DNA of 44,122 nucleotides from Pyrinomonadaceae bacterium. Lineage in GTDB: Bacteria > Acidobacteriota > Blastocatellia > Pyrinomonadales > Pyrinomonadaceae. The stretch covers positions 1 through 44,122 of the forward strand of contig JACCSP010000014.1 in NCBI GenBank assembly GCA_013812905.1, read 5' to 3'. The translations under genes were made by a program, and so were the position numbers. A model generated the notes under the pieces. That model was not told the origin of the DNA, did not search any database, and saw only the letters and a program-made list of their open reading frames with translations. This document shows positions 559 through 42,780 of the stretch, piece after piece. Each line of letters opens with the position of its first letter. Positions within the stretch are counted from its first letter, which is position 1.

Positions 559-2550
559 ATGCAAGAAATCTTCGGACCAGACGGTCTAATCGCCAACGCT
601 CATCCTGATTATGAATATCGACCAGGCCAGATCCAGATGGCCCGGGCGGTGATGCGTGCCTTCGAAGATAGACACCATTTAATCGTGGAGGCTGGAACGG
701 GAACAGGGAAAACTCTAGCTTACCTTGTTCCTGCGGTGGCCGCGGCGCTCGGGGGGCGAGGACGGGTGATTATTTCTACCGGCACAAAGAATCTTCAGGA
801 ACAACTAATGGAGAAGGACATTCCCTTCCTCCAGAGCGTATTGCCCAAGAAGTTCACGGCCGCTTACATGAAAGGTCGAAATAACTACCTCTGTTTACAG
901 CGACTCAATCGTGCGCAGAGCTCTCCGGTGCTAGATGGGCTTGGTGAAGTTGATTACTTTGAGGATGTTACCCATTGGTCGAGAGAGTCGCCCACGGGTG
1001 ACCGCGCAGAATTGGCAAATCTTCCCGAGCATCTTTCCTTCTGGCGCCACATAGACGCACGTTCGGAAACTTGTATCGGTCAGAAGTGCCCGGACTTCGA
1101 TCCCTGCTTCATTACCCGGATGCGAAATCGCGCTCAGGATGCGGACATCGTAGTGGTCAATCATCATTTGTTCTTTGCCGACCTGGCGCTCAGAAACAGC
1201 GCCTATGGCAATGTGTTGCCTGACTATTCCGCAGTTATTCTTGATGAAGCGCATCTGATTGAGGATGTAGTCTCAGAATACTTTGGCGCGCAGGTCTCGA
1301 ATTACCAGGTGGAAGACTTGGGGCGCGATATTAGCGCCGTATCGATCGAAAATGCCGGGGTGGATCGGGAGGTAACTAAAACCTGCGCGCGTGTGGAGCG
1401 CTTCGCGGATAACTTTTGGATGGCCTTCCGCGTCGGGCGTGGTGAAGAAGGGCGTTACCCCGTCGTCCCGGGTACGTTCGCCACCAGGAGTAGTAACGGA
1501 GAAATAAACCCGACTCCAGTCGGAGATCTCTACATGTCCCTCGATGGGGCCCTCGCGCGACTTGAGACAACTCTGGATGCGCTCAAGGATAAACCGACTG
1601 AGGTCGAGAATCTCGTGCGGCGGATTAGACAGGTTCGCTTTGATCTTCAGTTCATCGTTACTGGAGCCGATAAGAAGTTTGTTTATTGGACTGAACGCAG
1701 AGGCCGTGGCTTCTTCCTCCGCGCCTCACCAATAGACGTTTCCGGGCTGCTGGAAGACAAACTCTTCGGCGAGGTGGAAACTGTAGTCTTGACCTCAGCA
1801 ACGCTTTCCAGCGCGGGTAATTTTGCATTCATTCGCGAGCGGCTGGGGCTCGACAAGGCTGAGGACTTGATTGCGGAATCAACTTTCGATTTCCAGAAAC
1901 AGGCCCTCCTTTACCTGCCGTCCAGGATGCCCGATCCGCGTTCCTCTGACTGGGCCCGGGCCGCAGCCGCCGAGGTCGTCAAGATTGTGAACGCCACCGA
2001 TGGTCGCGCATTTGTCCTCTCAACAAGTCTTGCGGGAATGCAGTCGCTATACGATCTGGTAATGCCAGAGCTGGACTATCCCTGTTTCCTGCAAGGCAGT
2101 GCAGCAAAGGGCAGGCTGCTGACGAGATTCAGGGAAACCCCGAATGCCGTGCTCTTTGCGACTTCGAGTTTCTGGCAGGGTGTGGATGTGCGCGGTGAGC
2201 AACTGTCATGTGTGATTATAGACAAACTGCCTTTTGCTGTACCGACCGATCCGATTGTCGCGGCGCGTCAGCGTTACATTGAAGACGAGGGCGGGTCGAG
2301 TTTTTTTGAGTACAGCGTGCCCCAGGCGATCATCAGCTTGAAGCAGGGACTGGGTCGGCTGATACGCAGTACTACTGACCGCGGCGTCCTTGCTGTGCTC
2401 GACCCCCGTCTGCTCACCAAAGCTTACGGGCGAACCTTTCTGAAGAGCCTGCCACCGTGTCGAGTGACCTCCCGCATTGATGAGCTGGCGAAGATTTTTG
2501 AAACCGAATCCAAGGTCCCAGGTCCAATGTCCAATGTCAGTTTGGTATGA
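559..2550 (+). CDS. dinG: DinG-family ATP-dependent DNA helicase with Fe-S cluster
   Basis: Superfamily 2 helicase of the XPD/DinG group, which unwinds DNA 5'-3' and acts in repair of replication blocks and R-loops. In the numbering from the TTG at 553, Walker A is GTGTGKT at residues 48-54 and the DEAH box is at 231-234. Four cysteines (114, 174, 179, 185) have the C-x4-C-x5-C spacing of the DinG 4Fe-4S domain. The C-terminal helicase domain carries the usual SFWQGVDV and QGLGRLIRS motifs. There is no extra exonuclease domain, and the length of about 663 residues fits the family. ATG 559 and TTG 553 are both possible starts; neither has a clear ribosome site. The last dozen or so residues (KVPGPMSNVSLV) are encoded by a 7-bp repeat array and are probably not conserved. 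Confidence 0.92.
   Translation: MQEIFGPDGLIANAHPDYEYRPGQIQMARAVMRAFEDRHHLIVEAGTGTGKTLAYLVPAVAAALGGRGRVIISTGTKNLQEQLMEKDIPFLQSVLPKKFTAAYMKGRNNYLCLQRLNRAQSSPVLDGLGEVDYFEDVTHWSRESPTGDRAELANLPEHLSFWRHIDARSETCIGQKCPDFDPCFITRMRNRAQDADIVVVNHHLFFADLALRNSAYGNVLPDYSAVILDEAHLIEDVVSEYFGAQVSNYQVEDLGRDISAVSIENAGVDREVTKTCARVERFADNFWMAFRVGRGEEGRYPVVPGTFATRSSNGEINPTPVGDLYMSLDGALARLETTLDALKDKPTEVENLVRRIRQVRFDLQFIVTGADKKFVYWTERRGRGFFLRASPIDVSGLLEDKLFGEVETVVLTSATLSSAGNFAFIRERLGLDKAEDLIAESTFDFQKQALLYLPSRMPDPRSSDWARAAAAEVVKIVNATDGRAFVLSTSLAGMQSLYDLVMPELDYPCFLQGSAAKGRLLTRFRETPNAVLFATSSFWQGVDVRGEQLSCVIIDKLPFAVPTDPIVAARQRYIEDEGGSSFFEYSVPQAIISLKQGLGRLIRSTTDRGVLAVLDPRLLTKAYGRTFLKSLPPCRVTSRIDELAKIFETESKVPGPMSNVSLV
2515..2542 (+). 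repeat. heptamer array, left arm of pair A (GTCCAAT units)
   Basis: Consecutive 7-bp units GTCCCAG (2515), GTCCAAT (2522), GTCCAAT (2529) and GTCAGTT (2536). They overlap the last codons of the helicase gene. On the minus strand the unit reads ATTGGAC, so this array faces the TTGGACT array at 2742-2776 and could pair with it. Confidence 0.8.
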
Positions 2551-2668
2551 TCTTTTAAAAATGAAGGCTACGTTGTTATTTGCTAATCTACCCTGACAGA
2601 GGCTCGGCCGAGGAGCGAGGGCGGTCCAGCTTAACAATTCGTGAAACTCGCTGACGAGATCGACTGAT

Positions 2669-2701
2669 CCAGCCTGAAAGTCTTTCAATAAATCAGGCTG
2701 G
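2669..2701. repeat. hairpin between helicase gene and queD
   Basis: CCAGCCTGA (2669-2677) and TCAGGCTGG (2693-2701) are perfect 9-bp inverted arms around a 15-base loop. No T-run follows, so it is only a possible terminator for the helicase gene. It lies inside the segment bounded by the two facing heptamer arrays. Confidence 0.55.
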
Positions 2702-2741
2702 AATCGGCTCGGCGTCAGGAAGGTGGGCTTTAACCCGCTCG

Positions 2742-2776
2742 TTGGACTTTGGACATGGGACGTTGGACTTTGGACT
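2742..2776 (+). repeat. heptamer array, right arm of pair A (TTGGACT units)
   Basis: Five consecutive 7-bp units: TTGGACT, TTGGACA, TGGGACG, TTGGACT, TTGGACT. The array ends 7 bases before the preferred queD start and contains an in-frame TTG (2742) that would add a repeat-derived peptide to QueD. It is complementary to the array at 2515-2542. Confidence 0.85.
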
Positions 2777-2783
2777 TTGCAGC

Positions 2784-3179
2784 ATGCCAAACTTCACTAT
2801 GCCAGGACAATTTGAAGTCATGATTGAACGCAACTTCTCTAGCGCGCACCAACTGCGCGGTTACAAAGGGAAGTGTGAAAACTTACACGGTCACAACTAC
2901 AGAATCGAAATCTACGCTCGCGGCCGCGAGTTAGATAACATTGGACTGTTGGTTGATTTTGTTGAGTTAAAGGCTGCCGCTGACGAAGTGGTCCAATATT
3001 TGGACCATCAGAACATAAACGAGCTAGCTCCCTTTCATGTGTTGCAGCCCTCGGCTGAGAATCTCGCAAAACATATTCTGGAGCAAGTAAGTTCGAAGGT
3101 CGGTGACAAACGCGTGCAGATCTTCAAGGTGCGATGTTTCGAGACACCGACGAGCGTAGCGACCTACCGGGTGGATTAA
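2784..3179 (+). CDS. queD: 6-carboxy-5,6,7,8-tetrahydropterin synthase QueD
   Basis: Converts 7,8-dihydroneopterin triphosphate to 6-carboxytetrahydropterin, the first committed step toward preQ0 and queuosine in tRNA. Counting from ATG 2784 (131 residues, usual family size), zinc-binding His are H22, H35 and H37 (SSAHQL and LHGHNY), the catalytic Cys is C31, and the DHQNIN (H75) and FETPTS (E120) motifs are present. The frame is open upstream to a TTG at 2742, but that part is made of 7-bp repeats, so ATG 2784 (or ATG 2799) is the likelier start. The partners QueE and QueC are encoded about 21 kb away on the other strand. Confidence 0.92.
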   Translation: MPNFTMPGQFEVMIERNFSSAHQLRGYKGKCENLHGHNYRIEIYARGRELDNIGLLVDFVELKAAADEVVQYLDHQNINELAPFHVLQPSAENLAKHILEQVSSKVGDKRVQIFKVRCFETPTSVATYRVD

Positions 3180-24309: not shown

Positions 24310-25059
24310 TTAATAAGCAAAACGCTTGCTGTCAAGCGAATACGAAATTGGATCAGTGATCCCCGCATCGTGAAAAGCACGTAACCGCAGGGCGCAGGAA
24401 TCGCACACTCCACAGGCCTGCTCGGATTCCTGATAACACGACCAAGTAAGCTCGAGTGGCGCTCCAAGCGACTGCGCCCGAAGCACGATTTCACGCTTCT
24501 TCATGGCGATTACCGGGGTCCTAATCTCGAGTGCGGTTTGAGGTCTTGTTCCGAGGTCTATTACCTTTTGAAATGCGGCGTAAAACTCCGGGCGGCAATC
24601 CGGATAGCCCGAAGAATCCTCAGCGACCGCGCCAATATAAATGCGACAAGCCTGAATCATTTCAGCCCAACTTGTAGCAATCGACAGGAAGTGTGCGTTG
24701 CGAAAAGGAACGTAGCTCGAGGGTATTCCTGGAGCCCCAAGGTTCGCCCTGGTTACTGGAATCTGGGGGTCGGTTAGCGACGAACCACCTATCCTGCTCA
24801 AGTGCTCAATCGAAACAGTCAGGCGGAGGTTTGTCTGATAGTAATCGGCGATCTCCTCGAAAGCTTGCCGCTCTCGCTCTTCAGTGCGCTGGCCATAGGA
24901 GATGTGCAGCAACCCAAGTTCATCATTCTCGGCACGGGCAATCGCGGCTGTAACACAGGAATCCATGCCACCTGAGACAAGGCAAACAGCAAGGGAGGAT
25001 TCCGAATCCCTTGATTCGGATTCAGAGGGTTCGTATGACTCGTCGTCATGGCCGCCCAT
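24310..25059 (-). CDS. queC: 7-cyano-7-deazaguanine synthase QueC
   Basis: ATP-dependent enzyme that converts 7-carboxy-7-deazaguanine to preQ0. The PP-loop is SGGMDS at 29-34 of the 249-residue product, and a zinc site of clustered cysteines (SCYQESEQACGVCDSCALR) lies near the C-terminus. ATG 25059 overlaps the queE stop by one base (TGATG), so translation is coupled; the frame is open further upstream but that part is antiparallel to queE. The first 22 residues are an unusual Ser/Glu/Asp-rich extension (SYEPSESESRDSESS) encoded partly by an inverted repeat. Confidence 0.94.
   Translation of the reverse strand: MGGHDDESYEPSESESRDSESSLAVCLVSGGMDSCVTAAIARAENDELGLLHISYGQRTEERERQAFEEIADYYQTNLRLTVSIEHLSRIGGSSLTDPQIPVTRANLGAPGIPSSYVPFRNAHFLSIATSWAEMIQACRIYIGAVAEDSSGYPDCRPEFYAAFQKVIDLGTRPQTALEIRTPVIAMKKREIVLRAQSLGAPLELTWSCYQESEQACGVCDSCALRLRAFHDAGITDPISYSLDSKRFAY
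24998..25023. repeat. GATTCSGAWTC palindrome pair inside queC
   Basis: GATTCCGAATC (24998-25008) and GATTCGGATTC (25013-25023) are near-perfect inverted arms separated by 4 bases. They encode the Ser/Glu-rich N-terminal extension of QueC. Related sequence occurs in the sigma-factor gene at 26051-26062 (GGATTCGGATTC). Confidence 0.6.
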
Positions 25060-25709
25060 CAAACACCTCGTGCCTCGGGCCCCCAGATGTGCTTGTGCAT
25101 TTGTAATTGCATCCGCACGTTGAGCCCGCTGCTCGTTATCCAACTCGCAACCTCCTGCAAGTCCACGCCGTTCCAGATTGGAGATATTAAGACCGCCTTA
25201 GCGCGCTTCTCCAAATCGAAGCTCTCGATGATGTTGCGGGCAAAATCCCAGTCGCTGCGATTGGCAATCACAAATTTGACTTCATCTTTGTCCGCGCGTA
25301 GCGCGTCGAGGTTGGGCCAGTGGTTGCGAGCATCCTCGCCTGAACCGGGACACTTCACATCTAGGATAATTTTGGCCCGCGGATCGACGGCCTCGGTTGA
25401 AACATAGCCTCCAGTCTCCACCAGAACTTCGTATTCTTCTTCGCACAGCTTATGTATCAGCGTAAACGCTTGTGGCTGCGCTAGTGGCTCGCCTCCGGTG
25501 ACTTCTACCAGGTTGCATCCGATCGCGCGCACTGTCGCTAATACTTCGTCGATTGAAAGATGGTCCCCGCCCGTGAATGTATACTCGCTGTCACACCATA
25601 CGCATCGCATCGGACACCCGGTAAGGCGCACAAATGCGCAAGGCCTGCCGGCGTGAGTAGACTCACCCTGGATGGAGTGAAAAATCTCGGTGACTCGAAG
25701 TATGGACAC
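25059..25709 (-). CDS. queE: 7-carboxy-7-deazaguanine synthase QueE
   Basis: Radical SAM enzyme that converts 6-carboxytetrahydropterin (the QueD product) to 7-carboxy-7-deazaguanine. The 4Fe-4S cysteines C32, C36 and C39 are in GCPMRCVWCD with the canonical C-x3-C-x2-C spacing. The N-terminal VTEIFHSIQGES and the later EVTGGEPL motif are typical. It starts at GTG 25709 with a weak ribosome site and ends inside the first base of queC. It is divergent from the sigma-factor gene. Confidence 0.95.
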   Translation of the reverse strand: MSILRVTEIFHSIQGESTHAGRPCAFVRLTGCPMRCVWCDSEYTFTGGDHLSIDEVLATVRAIGCNLVEVTGGEPLAQPQAFTLIHKLCEEEYEVLVETGGYVSTEAVDPRAKIILDVKCPGSGEDARNHWPNLDALRADKDEVKFVIANRSDWDFARNIIESFDLEKRAKAVLISPIWNGVDLQEVASWITSSGLNVRMQLQMHKHIWGPEARGV

Positions 25710-40578: not shown

Positions 40579-41904
40579 ATGCGCCGCAGCAAACGCATCG
40601 TGTTATCAACCTTCGGTTCGCTTGGTGACATCCATCCGTACATGGCGATTGCCCTCGAACTCCAGGCGCGGGGCCATGACCCCGTGATCGCCACCAGCAG
40701 CCTGTATCGGGAAAAGATTGAAGGCGCGGGACTGAGTTTCGCGGCGATGCGACCTGATCTGCCACCGCCCAGGGAACAAGATCAGGAGATGATGGACAGA
40801 ATCATGGAGCCTAAGTCTGGTCCGAAATATTTAATGGAAGAACTTATTTTCCCTTACGTGCGCGAGGGCTATGCCGACCTGATGCAAGCCTCCGAGGGAG
40901 CTGATCTGCTGGTAACTCATCCAATCACGTTCGCTGGGCCGCTCGTGGCGCGAACGACGGGAATACCCTGGATTTCTACCGTACTCGCTCCGCTCTCGTT
41001 TTTCTCAGCTTACGATCCACCCATGCCCCCATTTTGGCCATGGTTGAATAAACTCCGGCTGCTGGGCCCGCGTTTTATGAAATCGTTTATGGATTTAGTA
41101 AAGCGGAATTATCGTGCAAAGCCGGTAGATGAACTTCGAAAGGAGTTGGGCATTCCCGATTTTGGAAATCCAGCTTTTGATGGGCAACACTCGCCTGGGC
41201 TCGTGCTTGCCCTCTTTTCTAAACACTTCGCCGGCCCGCAGGCTGATTGGCCGCGGCAAACTCAGATTACCGGTTTTCCCTTCTACGATGGGCAGCACGA
41301 GAATGTCATGCCTCCGGAGTTGTTCGAGTTCCTCAACTCAGGTGCGGCGCCTATCGTGTTCACCCTCGGGTCGTCGGCTGTCTGGGTGGCGCGGGATTTC
41401 TTCCATGAGAGTATTGCCGCGGCGAAAAAGCTGGGACATCGGCGCGCTGTCTTGTTGATCGGCGACGAGCGCAACCGTCCCCAGGAGCCTTTGCCCCCGG
41501 AGATGATTGCCGTCGATTATGCTCCGTTTGAATCACTCCTTGATCGCGGGTGCGTCATTGTCCACCATGGCGGAGTGGGTACCACCTCCCAGGGACTTCG
41601 TGCCGGTATTCCCACGTTGATCGTGCCCTTTGCTTTCGATCAGTCTGACAATGCGGCGCACGCTGCCCGACTCGGAACTAGCCGTACTCTTTACCGGAGT
41701 GTCTACAAGGCCGAACGGGTGGCGAAAGAACTCGACAACTTGCTGAGCAAGCCTCAGTATGCGGTGAAAGCCAGGGAAGTCGGTGCATGCCTGCGCAGCG
41801 AAAATGGAGCGGCCACCGCGTCGGACTTGATAGAGGAGTTCTTGAGCGGCTGGCGGAGAAAAAAAACGGCAACCGAAGATCTCACCTATGCTTCTCGTAA
41901 TTGA
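40579..41904 (+). CDS. UGT-type (GT1-like) glycosyltransferase
   Basis: Protein of 441 residues with a GT-B fold. The N-terminal block STFGSLGDIHPYMAIALELQARGHDP is typical of macrolide/sterol-glycosyltransferase relatives. The nucleotide-sugar donor motif near the C-terminus is VHHGGVGTTSQGLRAGIPTLIVPFAFDQSDNA, with the HHGG and DQ residues of family GT1. Likely acceptors are lipids, sterol-like molecules or secondary metabolites; the sequence does not decide. AGGAG lies 5 bases before the ATG. Its end overlaps the coaX start by 17 bases, so the two are translationally coupled. Confidence 0.9.
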   Translation: MRRSKRIVLSTFGSLGDIHPYMAIALELQARGHDPVIATSSLYREKIEGAGLSFAAMRPDLPPPREQDQEMMDRIMEPKSGPKYLMEELIFPYVREGYADLMQASEGADLLVTHPITFAGPLVARTTGIPWISTVLAPLSFFSAYDPPMPPFWPWLNKLRLLGPRFMKSFMDLVKRNYRAKPVDELRKELGIPDFGNPAFDGQHSPGLVLALFSKHFAGPQADWPRQTQITGFPFYDGQHENVMPPELFEFLNSGAAPIVFTLGSSAVWVARDFFHESIAAAKKLGHRRAVLLIGDERNRPQEPLPPEMIAVDYAPFESLLDRGCVIVHHGGVGTTSQGLRAGIPTLIVPFAFDQSDNAAHAARLGTSRTLYRSVYKAERVAKELDNLLSKPQYAVKAREVGACLRSENGAATASDLIEEFLSGWRRKKTATEDLTYASRN

Positions 41905-42691
41905 CGTTGGAAATACCAATACTTCTTTGGGCGTCTACCGTGGTTCCGAGCTGGTAGCCCATTGGCGCCTGACCACAAATCGCGCACGAACCGTTGATGA
42001 GTATGGTGTTCACGCGCGCAACCTGTTTGAGCTGGCCAGCCTCGACTTCAAAGCCATCGACGCTATCGCAATCGCCTCGGTAGTACCGCCGTTAAACTAC
42101 ACATTGAAGACGATGGCCGAGACCTACTTCCACTTAACGCCATTCTTCGTGGACAACACGGTCGACTCCGGAGTCCAAATTCTTTACGAACCAGCGGCGG
42201 ATGTGGGTGCCGACAGAATTGTAGATGCGGCCGCTGCCATCCATAAGTATGGCTCGCCCTGTATCGTCGTCGACTTTGGCACCGCCACCACTTTCAATGC
42301 AATCAACGCGCGAGGCGAATACCTTGGCGGTGTTATTACTCCGGGAATCATGATTTCGTCCGACGCGTTATTTGATCGGACGGCGAAGCTGCCGCGCGTG
42401 GACATCAAGCGACCGCAGAAAGTTATCGGGTCATCAACAATAAGCGCGATGCAGTCAGGGCTCTATCATGGCTACGTGGGGCTGGTTGATGGTGTCCTGC
42501 GCAAGATGATCGAGGAAATGGGTGGTAAGGCCCGAGTGATTGCTACTGGTGGACTGGCCCCTTTGATTGCCACCGGTTCGGAGTTTATTGAGCTGGTTGA
42601 TGACACCCTGACGTTGGAGGGGCTGAGACTGGTGTATGAACGGAATGCTAAGTCAGTGTCCAATGTCCAACGTCCAATGTCCAAAGTCTAG
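41888..42691 (+). CDS. coaX: type III pantothenate kinase CoaX
   Basis: First step of coenzyme A synthesis: phosphorylation of pantothenate. The ASKHA-fold motifs are DVGNTNT at 6-12, GADRIVDA and DFGTATTFN, together with GGVITPGI. The length of 267 residues fits the family, except that the last roughly 10 residues (SNVQRPMSKV) are encoded by a 7-bp repeat array and probably replace or extend the natural end. The start overlaps the upstream glycosyltransferase gene by 17 bases. Confidence 0.95.
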   Translation: MLLVIDVGNTNTSLGVYRGSELVAHWRLTTNRARTVDEYGVHARNLFELASLDFKAIDAIAIASVVPPLNYTLKTMAETYFHLTPFFVDNTVDSGVQILYEPAADVGADRIVDAAAAIHKYGSPCIVVDFGTATTFNAINARGEYLGGVITPGIMISSDALFDRTAKLPRVDIKRPQKVIGSSTISAMQSGLYHGYVGLVDGVLRKMIEEMGGKARVIATGGLAPLIATGSEFIELVDDTLTLEGLRLVYERNAKSVSNVQRPMSKV

Positions 42692-42699: not shown

Positions 42700-42731
42700 G
42701 TCGAAGAGTTTAATCGGCTTGTAGTGTGACA

Positions 42732-42780
42732 TTGGACTTTGGACTTTGGACCTTGGACCTTTGACCTTTGACCTTGGACT
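42732..42780 (+). repeat. heptamer array, right arm of pair B (TTGGACT units)
   Basis: Seven consecutive 7-bp units: TTGGACT, TTGGACT, TTGGACC, TTGGACC, TTTGACC, TTTGACC, TTGGACT. It is complementary to the array at 42658-42699 and could form a long hairpin with it. The in-frame TTG codons at 42768, 42774 and 42780 are the only nearby starts for the following gene. Confidence 0.92.

Follow-up and report, generated by a model that had tools for sequence, protein, structure and literature searches.

Repeats with a unit of seven nucleotides have been described in bacteria several times, and a unit length of 7 is favored in many bacteria (Subirana and Messeguer 2019, PMC6749651; Mrazek et al. 2007, cited through PMC4679880). 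The GGGNATC heptamers of Xanthomonas and Nostoc follow stops on the coding strand and, on the non-coding strand, precede starts; they were explained by G-quadruplexes (Rehm et al. 2015, PMC4692102). The TAACTGA repeats of Beggiatoaceae, cyanobacteria and Bacteroidetes are direct repeats that precede start codons and have no predicted structure (MacGregor 2015, PMC4679880). In the Nostoc tRNA-Leu intron, degenerate heptanucleotide repeats form the hairpin of the P6b stem (PMC3488679). Repetitive extragenic palindromic (REP) elements are dispersed palindromes found mostly downstream of genes, with several families per genome (Di Nocera et al. 2013, PMC3733652). The subject here is a 44,122-nt stretch of contig JACCSP010000014.1 (the window) from an uncultured Pyrinomonadaceae bacterium, whose genome is G000 among the genomes compared. 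The two facing heptamer arrays at the end of its dinG gene, and likewise those at coaX, belong together as left and right arm of a palindromic intergenic element, named the "heptad-stem hairpin". Dozens of such hairpin repeats lie between the genes of this bacterium, the dinG pair being one of them.

Structure of the elements in the window

Element 1 occupies the junction of dinG and queD. Its left arm (2507-2538, - strand) carries four GTCCAAN units at 2507-2534 in the last codons of dinG, which read on the - strand as TTGGACA, TTGGACC, TGGGACC and TTGGATT. Its right arm (2742-2779, + strand) lies directly upstream of queD and has five TTGGACN units at 2742-2776, one of them a variant (TTGGACT, TTGGACA, TGGGACG, TTGGACT, TTGGACT). 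Beyond the right array, an ATG (2784) follows after 7 nt and the conserved QueD start (2799) after 22 nt. The long loop (2539-2741) contains a small hairpin (2668-2702), in which 2668-2677 pairs with 2693-2702, and what is probably the remnant of a different dispersed palindrome, AGGAAGGTGGGCTT... (2717-2738), also present at the G011 junctions L342 and L346. An initial annotation of this DNA had described the array in the 3' end of the helicase gene, the five units facing it before queD and the inner hairpin between them, and the coordinates agree. The two arrays also pair with each other (minimum free energy -108.7 kcal/mol, z -5.8).

The same geometry recurs in the window, as the annotation had noted, and this second copy lies between coaX and the following gene. 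The left arm of element 2 (42657-42688, - strand) is made of GTCCAAN units that lie within the last part of coaX, and the right arm (42728-42780, + strand; array at 42728-42779) consists of seven TTGGACN-like units that reach the TTG start of the following gene; the RNA hairpin of this element folds with z -5.9. With up to three mismatches allowed, the 14-mer had 22 matches in the window, against a mean of 3.2 and a maximum of 6 in shuffled sequence. No Rfam family reached its gathering score anywhere in the window, and no intrinsic terminator, that is, a short G+C-rich stem followed by a T run, was found in 2400-2900.

Geometry, polarity and folding

The pattern TTGGACNTTGGAC has 62 + 54 = 116 matches genome-wide and its reversed control has 0. 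The reversed control matched 11, 3 and 3 times in G049, G066 and G079, where the matches are facing arrays of another word (AACCTGN). The facing pattern GTCCAANGTCCAA-(10 to 40)-TTGGACNTTGGAC is present in 13 of 60 genomes of the family, with 30, 12 and 11 matches per strand in G004, G000 and G065, and the opposite arm order, TTGGAC on the left and GTCCAA on the right, occurs in none of the 60. Since either order could form a hairpin and one alone occurs, the fixed order is a real property of the elements. In a pooled set dominated by G000 and its relatives, the left array was on the - strand and the right array on the + strand in 51 of 58 neighboring pairs. When neighboring arrays of all words were compared in unbiased DNA of G004 and G014, two relatives from the same genus, 58 pairs were inverted, 4 were direct and 33 were unrelated; random pairing would give about 5% inverted and about 5% direct. 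Words seen in several pairs kept one polarity in 78 of 81 pairs, and the three exceptions all fall in a single cluster that apparently merges two similar words. Folded as RNA, 20 elements had a mean z of -7.5 relative to dinucleotide shuffles.

Many words, one unit length

Tracts of period k were sought independently of sequence in 194 kb of G000, selected as TTGGAC loci, and in unbiased DNA of G004 (476 kb) and G014 (320 kb). Period-7 tracts numbered 46, 66 and 34, and nearly none were found at most other periods, the harmonic 14 in G000 excepted. G004 and G014 together use more than 20 heptamer words, including AAACTCG, ACTCAGC, AAATCCG, AAATGGT, AATCGGC and AAGACAG. As these words share one layout, the element is defined by its geometry and its 7-nt unit; TTGGACN is just one word among many, and a single TTGGAC-specific element was rejected. 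The initial annotation's proposal of a genome-wide element with inverted arrays is upheld, with the change that this element is not tied to the word TTGGACN.

The unit is made up of about six fairly constant bases and one or two free bases, and the two arms of an element are reverse complements. Counted outside the search seed (seeds were found by exact hexamers), TTGGACN units deviated at rates of 0.29-0.39 at position 7, 0.12-0.19 at positions 1-3 and 0-0.09 at positions 4-6. For the other words the mean deviation by ranked position was 0.35, 0.13, and 0.03 and less, so that variation is concentrated at one position; in arrays with at least three deviations, the commonest phase held 0.55 of them versus 0.41 expected. 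Constant positions of this kind, the regular 7-nt spacing and the fixed polarity would suit clusters of sites bound by a DNA- or RNA-binding regulator, with two such clusters facing each other at every junction. That explanation is very improbable: with more than 20 words in the same layout within one genus, switched at orthologous junctions, equally many regulators would be needed, and dinG, queD and coaX, the neighbors in the window, are functionally unrelated.

Heptamer arrays of several words were also found in G022, of the same family, and G025, of the same class; they were absent from the samples of G003, G027, G030 and G049. Among the matches listed, TTGGACN arrays occur in metagenome-assembled genomes (MAGs) of Verrucomicrobiota, Lentisphaerae, Phycisphaerae, Bacteroidota and others, and facing pairs predominate in the acidobacterial loci and occur in Verrucomicrobiota as well. 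In several loci of Saprospiraceae (L109, L113, L128, L130) the TTGGAC arrays are oppositely ordered, + then -, often with mixed 7- and 8-nt spacing (15-nt units). Four IMG/VR contigs (L414-L417), which may be host DNA or proviruses, bear facing TTGGAC elements. Many heptamer arrays are also present in L078, L136, L138 and L144, filed as Klebsiella pneumoniae (TH-08apr19-175) and probably misnamed MAG contigs.

Position relative to genes

By approximate gene calls, made here from open reading frames (ORFs) and codon usage, 76 of 100 arrays are intergenic, and the 24 assigned to coding DNA fall mostly in stretches rich in arrays, where the gene calls may be wrong. In 27 of 58 cases the distance from the outer edge of the array to a stop codon is at most 10 nt; random placement gives 17.0 such cases, with no more than 26 in any of 2000 draws. 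Closeness to start codons was not significant (21 of 52 versus 18.3). The 52 junctions with arrays comprise 42 codirectional, 6 convergent and 4 divergent ones, and all junctions of at least 60 nt comprise 271, 45 and 58; the depletion of divergent junctions was not significant (p = 0.10). A bidirectional terminator for convergent genes was considered and rejected, as convergent junctions are not enriched (6/52 versus 45/374).

Turnover between relatives

Orthologous junctions differ widely. At coaX, the element is missing from G004, G006 and G011, where there is almost no intergenic DNA, and whole or partial elements are found in the close relatives G000, G001, G002, G007 and G012, with different units, loops and nested repeats. 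At the dinG-queD junction, G004 has four units on each side, which also code for the tail of its DinG; G002 and G009 have two right-hand units only; and G003, G005 and G010 have no units and almost no spacer. G004 and G011, whose syntenic stretches are 86% identical in nucleotide sequence, were compared at about 24 array-bearing junctions sorted by eye. About half of these had the same word with a changed unit number or loop, about 7 had an element in one genome only, and in 4-5 the word itself differed, as where G004 has TTGGAC and G011 has TTTCGAG or GGTGTCG. Gain, loss, unit change and word switching thus become countable at about 86% identity, and the heptad elements are a fast-changing class of dispersed elements.

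Other palindromic repeats occupy the same junctions or nest inside the loops. One of these, GCGGGGGCAAGCCCGCCTTCC ... GGAAGGTGGGCTTGCCCCCGC, lies in heptad-element junctions at L342 ~13854 and L346 ~10397 and at 2717-2738 in the window. Another, AAGCAGTTCAGAGTACAAGCTT ... TCTAAACTGCTTG, is found inside the loop of a heptad element or in place of it (L342 9657-9822, L344 10720-10925).

The persistence of pairing at junctions where the word differs, together with strong folding and the nearby stop codons, would be expected if the junction required a hairpin, as an mRNA end or an insulator, and selection maintained pairing while the word drifted. We consider this unlikely. Pairing alone permits both arm orders, yet the order TTGGAC...GTCCAA is absent; several orthologous junctions have no element at all; and mirrored core variants over 51 arm pairs were not significant (4/58, p = 0.15). 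The TGGGAC variant present in both dinG arms might be taken for a compensatory change, and was rejected as an anecdote in light of the latter count.

The whole-unit differences between orthologous arms would also fit slippage of 7-nt units in place, followed by fold-back (hairpin) copying of one arm to give the other, with no mobility or function and with junctions that are simply tolerant. Many-word heptamer arrays occur in unrelated bacteria, words grade into each other in composite arrays, and neighboring units share the free base weakly above chance (G000, 0.36 versus 0.27, p = 0.02), all of which agree with such a process. We regard it as possible but doubtful: the polarity of a word is constant over many sites, nine sites in G065 carry near-identical whole elements, and the free base is not mirrored between the arms and is shared only weakly by neighboring units, contrary to what plain slippage or fold-back copying predicts. 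The initial annotation had preferred a genome-wide element to slippage. In this it was partly right, as orthologous arms do change by whole 7-nt units.

Dispersal and proposed mechanism

Dispersal is shown in one genome, G065, which belongs to genus g25 of the same family. Nine closely similar copies in this genome have the core and largely the order of free bases in common, and at least four also share the loop; in several copies the arms are exact mirror images, that is, true mirror palindromes. The nine copies show that whole elements disperse. A few loops of G004 resemble each other more closely than shuffled loops do (0.70 versus 0.44). The likeness of loops and cores, combined with the fixed polarity, favors copying of whole elements followed by local change.

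Elements that are dispersed extragenic palindromes invite comparison with REP elements mobilized by REP-associated tyrosine transposases (RAYTs) of the Y1 type, whose genes are common in the family (5 matches in G000, 15 in G004). This route was rejected and is highly improbable: Y1 genes were searched for, their flanks were checked, and 0 of 30 examined Y1 (RAYT-type) loci had heptamer arrays adjoining the gene. Nor are the counts of Y1 genes and elements linked, G065 having 2 genes and 11 elements and G022 having 11 genes and 0 elements. No constant GTAG or CGTC end tag stood out in the elements inspected, which were not searched systematically.

Our overall reading, to which we assign a rough probability of 0.5, is that whole heptad-stem hairpins disperse into gene junctions, evolve there in place and exert a REP-like effect on RNA. 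The elements would enter junctions as units, this mobility being the putative general route, and would settle preferentially at the upstream stop codon, where insertion may be least harmful. Arms would then gain or lose whole units, loops would diverge or be invaded by other repeats, and an element could be replaced by another bearing a different heptamer word. An arm extending into the 3' end of a gene would rewrite its last codons or its stop, as at dinG and coaX. A transcript of the element would fold into a stable stem-loop that separates two cistrons. The hairpins of REP elements influence both the ends of mRNAs and the expression of neighboring genes; because of this, the heptad element probably acts in a REP-like manner, by analogy protecting or trimming mRNA ends and uncoupling neighboring genes.

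Several observations weigh against this reading. The arms do not mirror each other in the free base (0.350 versus 0.338, p = 0.36, in the pooled set, mostly G000 and its relatives), and simple descent from a single palindrome predicts otherwise. Hardly any loops are alike in G000, most being mutually unrelated. No transposase was identified for the elements, and the Y1 genes described above do not adjoin the arrays. The empty sites are too diverged and the junctions too short to show a target-site duplication.

The DinG tail and neighboring genes

The dinG-like helicase gene (553-2550, + strand) encodes Helicase_C_2, DEAD and DEAD_2 domains and ends in the tail KVPGPMSNVSLV, encoded by the left arm. 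The initial annotation was correct that the tail, ...SKVPGPMSNVSLV, has a period of seven residues, three units being 21 nt or seven codons. It had also presented the array as encoding the tail; the left arm does code for the end of DinG but did not create the tail. Comparison of DinG homologues, which it had called for, shows that G002, with no left array, has a tail at the same place with a sequence that differs from that of G000 (...PEPIANIEFV versus PGPMSNVSLV), and tails beyond the last conserved helicase residues vary freely among lineages of the genus. The repeat-encoded tail is a by-product of an array that rewrites an already free tail, and implies no peptide function. Similarly, the coaX gene for type III pantothenate kinase (41888-42691, + strand), the 3' end of which is the left arm of element 2, codes for the tail SVSNVQRPMSKV. 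Intergenic repeats can in this way alter the C-terminal ends of conserved proteins, DinG and CoaX among them.

Upstream of dinG, at 482-509, is a 10-nt tandem repeat, ACGAAATGGC, in 2.8 copies. Downstream of the right arm of element 1 is the queD-like gene of the PTPS family (2799-3179, + strand). Adjoining ORFs that look queC-like and queE-like by sequence are found at 24310-25709 on the - strand, distant from queD at 2799; the pathway is split in the contig.

Comparison with known systems

Like bacterial heptanucleotide repeats of the short tandemly repeated repetitive (STRR) or long simple sequence repeat (LSSR) type, the arrays consist of 7-nt tandem units above chance, in many copies and mainly in non-coding DNA. 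The available parts of the accounts by Mrazek et al. and by Subirana and Messeguer mention neither pairs of facing arrays nor a constant polarity nor a change of word between orthologous sites. The TAACTGA repeats are also intergenic heptamer arrays scattered over distant phyla, and have one word. REP elements share with the heptad elements the character of dispersed extragenic palindromes and the location; the heptad elements differ in having stems of tandem heptads that change by whole units and in having no adjoining RAYT. The Nostoc P6b stem resembles the heptad elements in its complementary paired sides (here 58 inverted versus 4 direct), and its copy number varies and other sequences are inserted in it. 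It is, however, a single group I intron locus with two repeat classes, whereas the heptad elements are intergenic, genome-wide and of many words.

The GGGNATC repeats have 7-nt units, one free base and dispersal between aligned ORFs in common with the heptad elements, and their positions on the two strands (PMC4692102) imply the same facing layout, although Rehm et al. did not read the facing pair as a hairpin. Words such as TTGGAC, ACTCAG and AAATGG, in contrast, are not G-rich. The four G-tracts of a quadruplex are lacking here, as TTGGAC and most of the words have no run of three G. That words without G-runs are laid out alike argues against G-quadruplexes as the general explanation.

It is conceivable, and in our view quite unlikely, that the heptamer repeats of cyanobacteria, Xanthomonas and Beggiatoa and those described here all belong to a single class of facing heptad palindromes that spans the bacteria and is generated by a dedicated mechanism measuring out 7 nt. 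Speculatively, a polymerase could copy a 6-nt template again and again, add an untemplated base in each cycle and so extend the two 3' ends of a break until they are joined. Such 6+1 copying, if true, would account for the facing order and for the 6+1 unit, as well as for a free base that is not mirrored and for words that differ between lineages. What sets the 7-nt unit is the testable question that these elements pose.

The literature searched yielded no description of facing heptamer arrays in Acidobacteriota. The class appears to extend the known heptanucleotide repeats by a previously undescribed form, a facing hairpin that is genome-wide and of many words, and it unites, under a common layout that is independent of the word, the heptamer repeats that earlier reports described separately.
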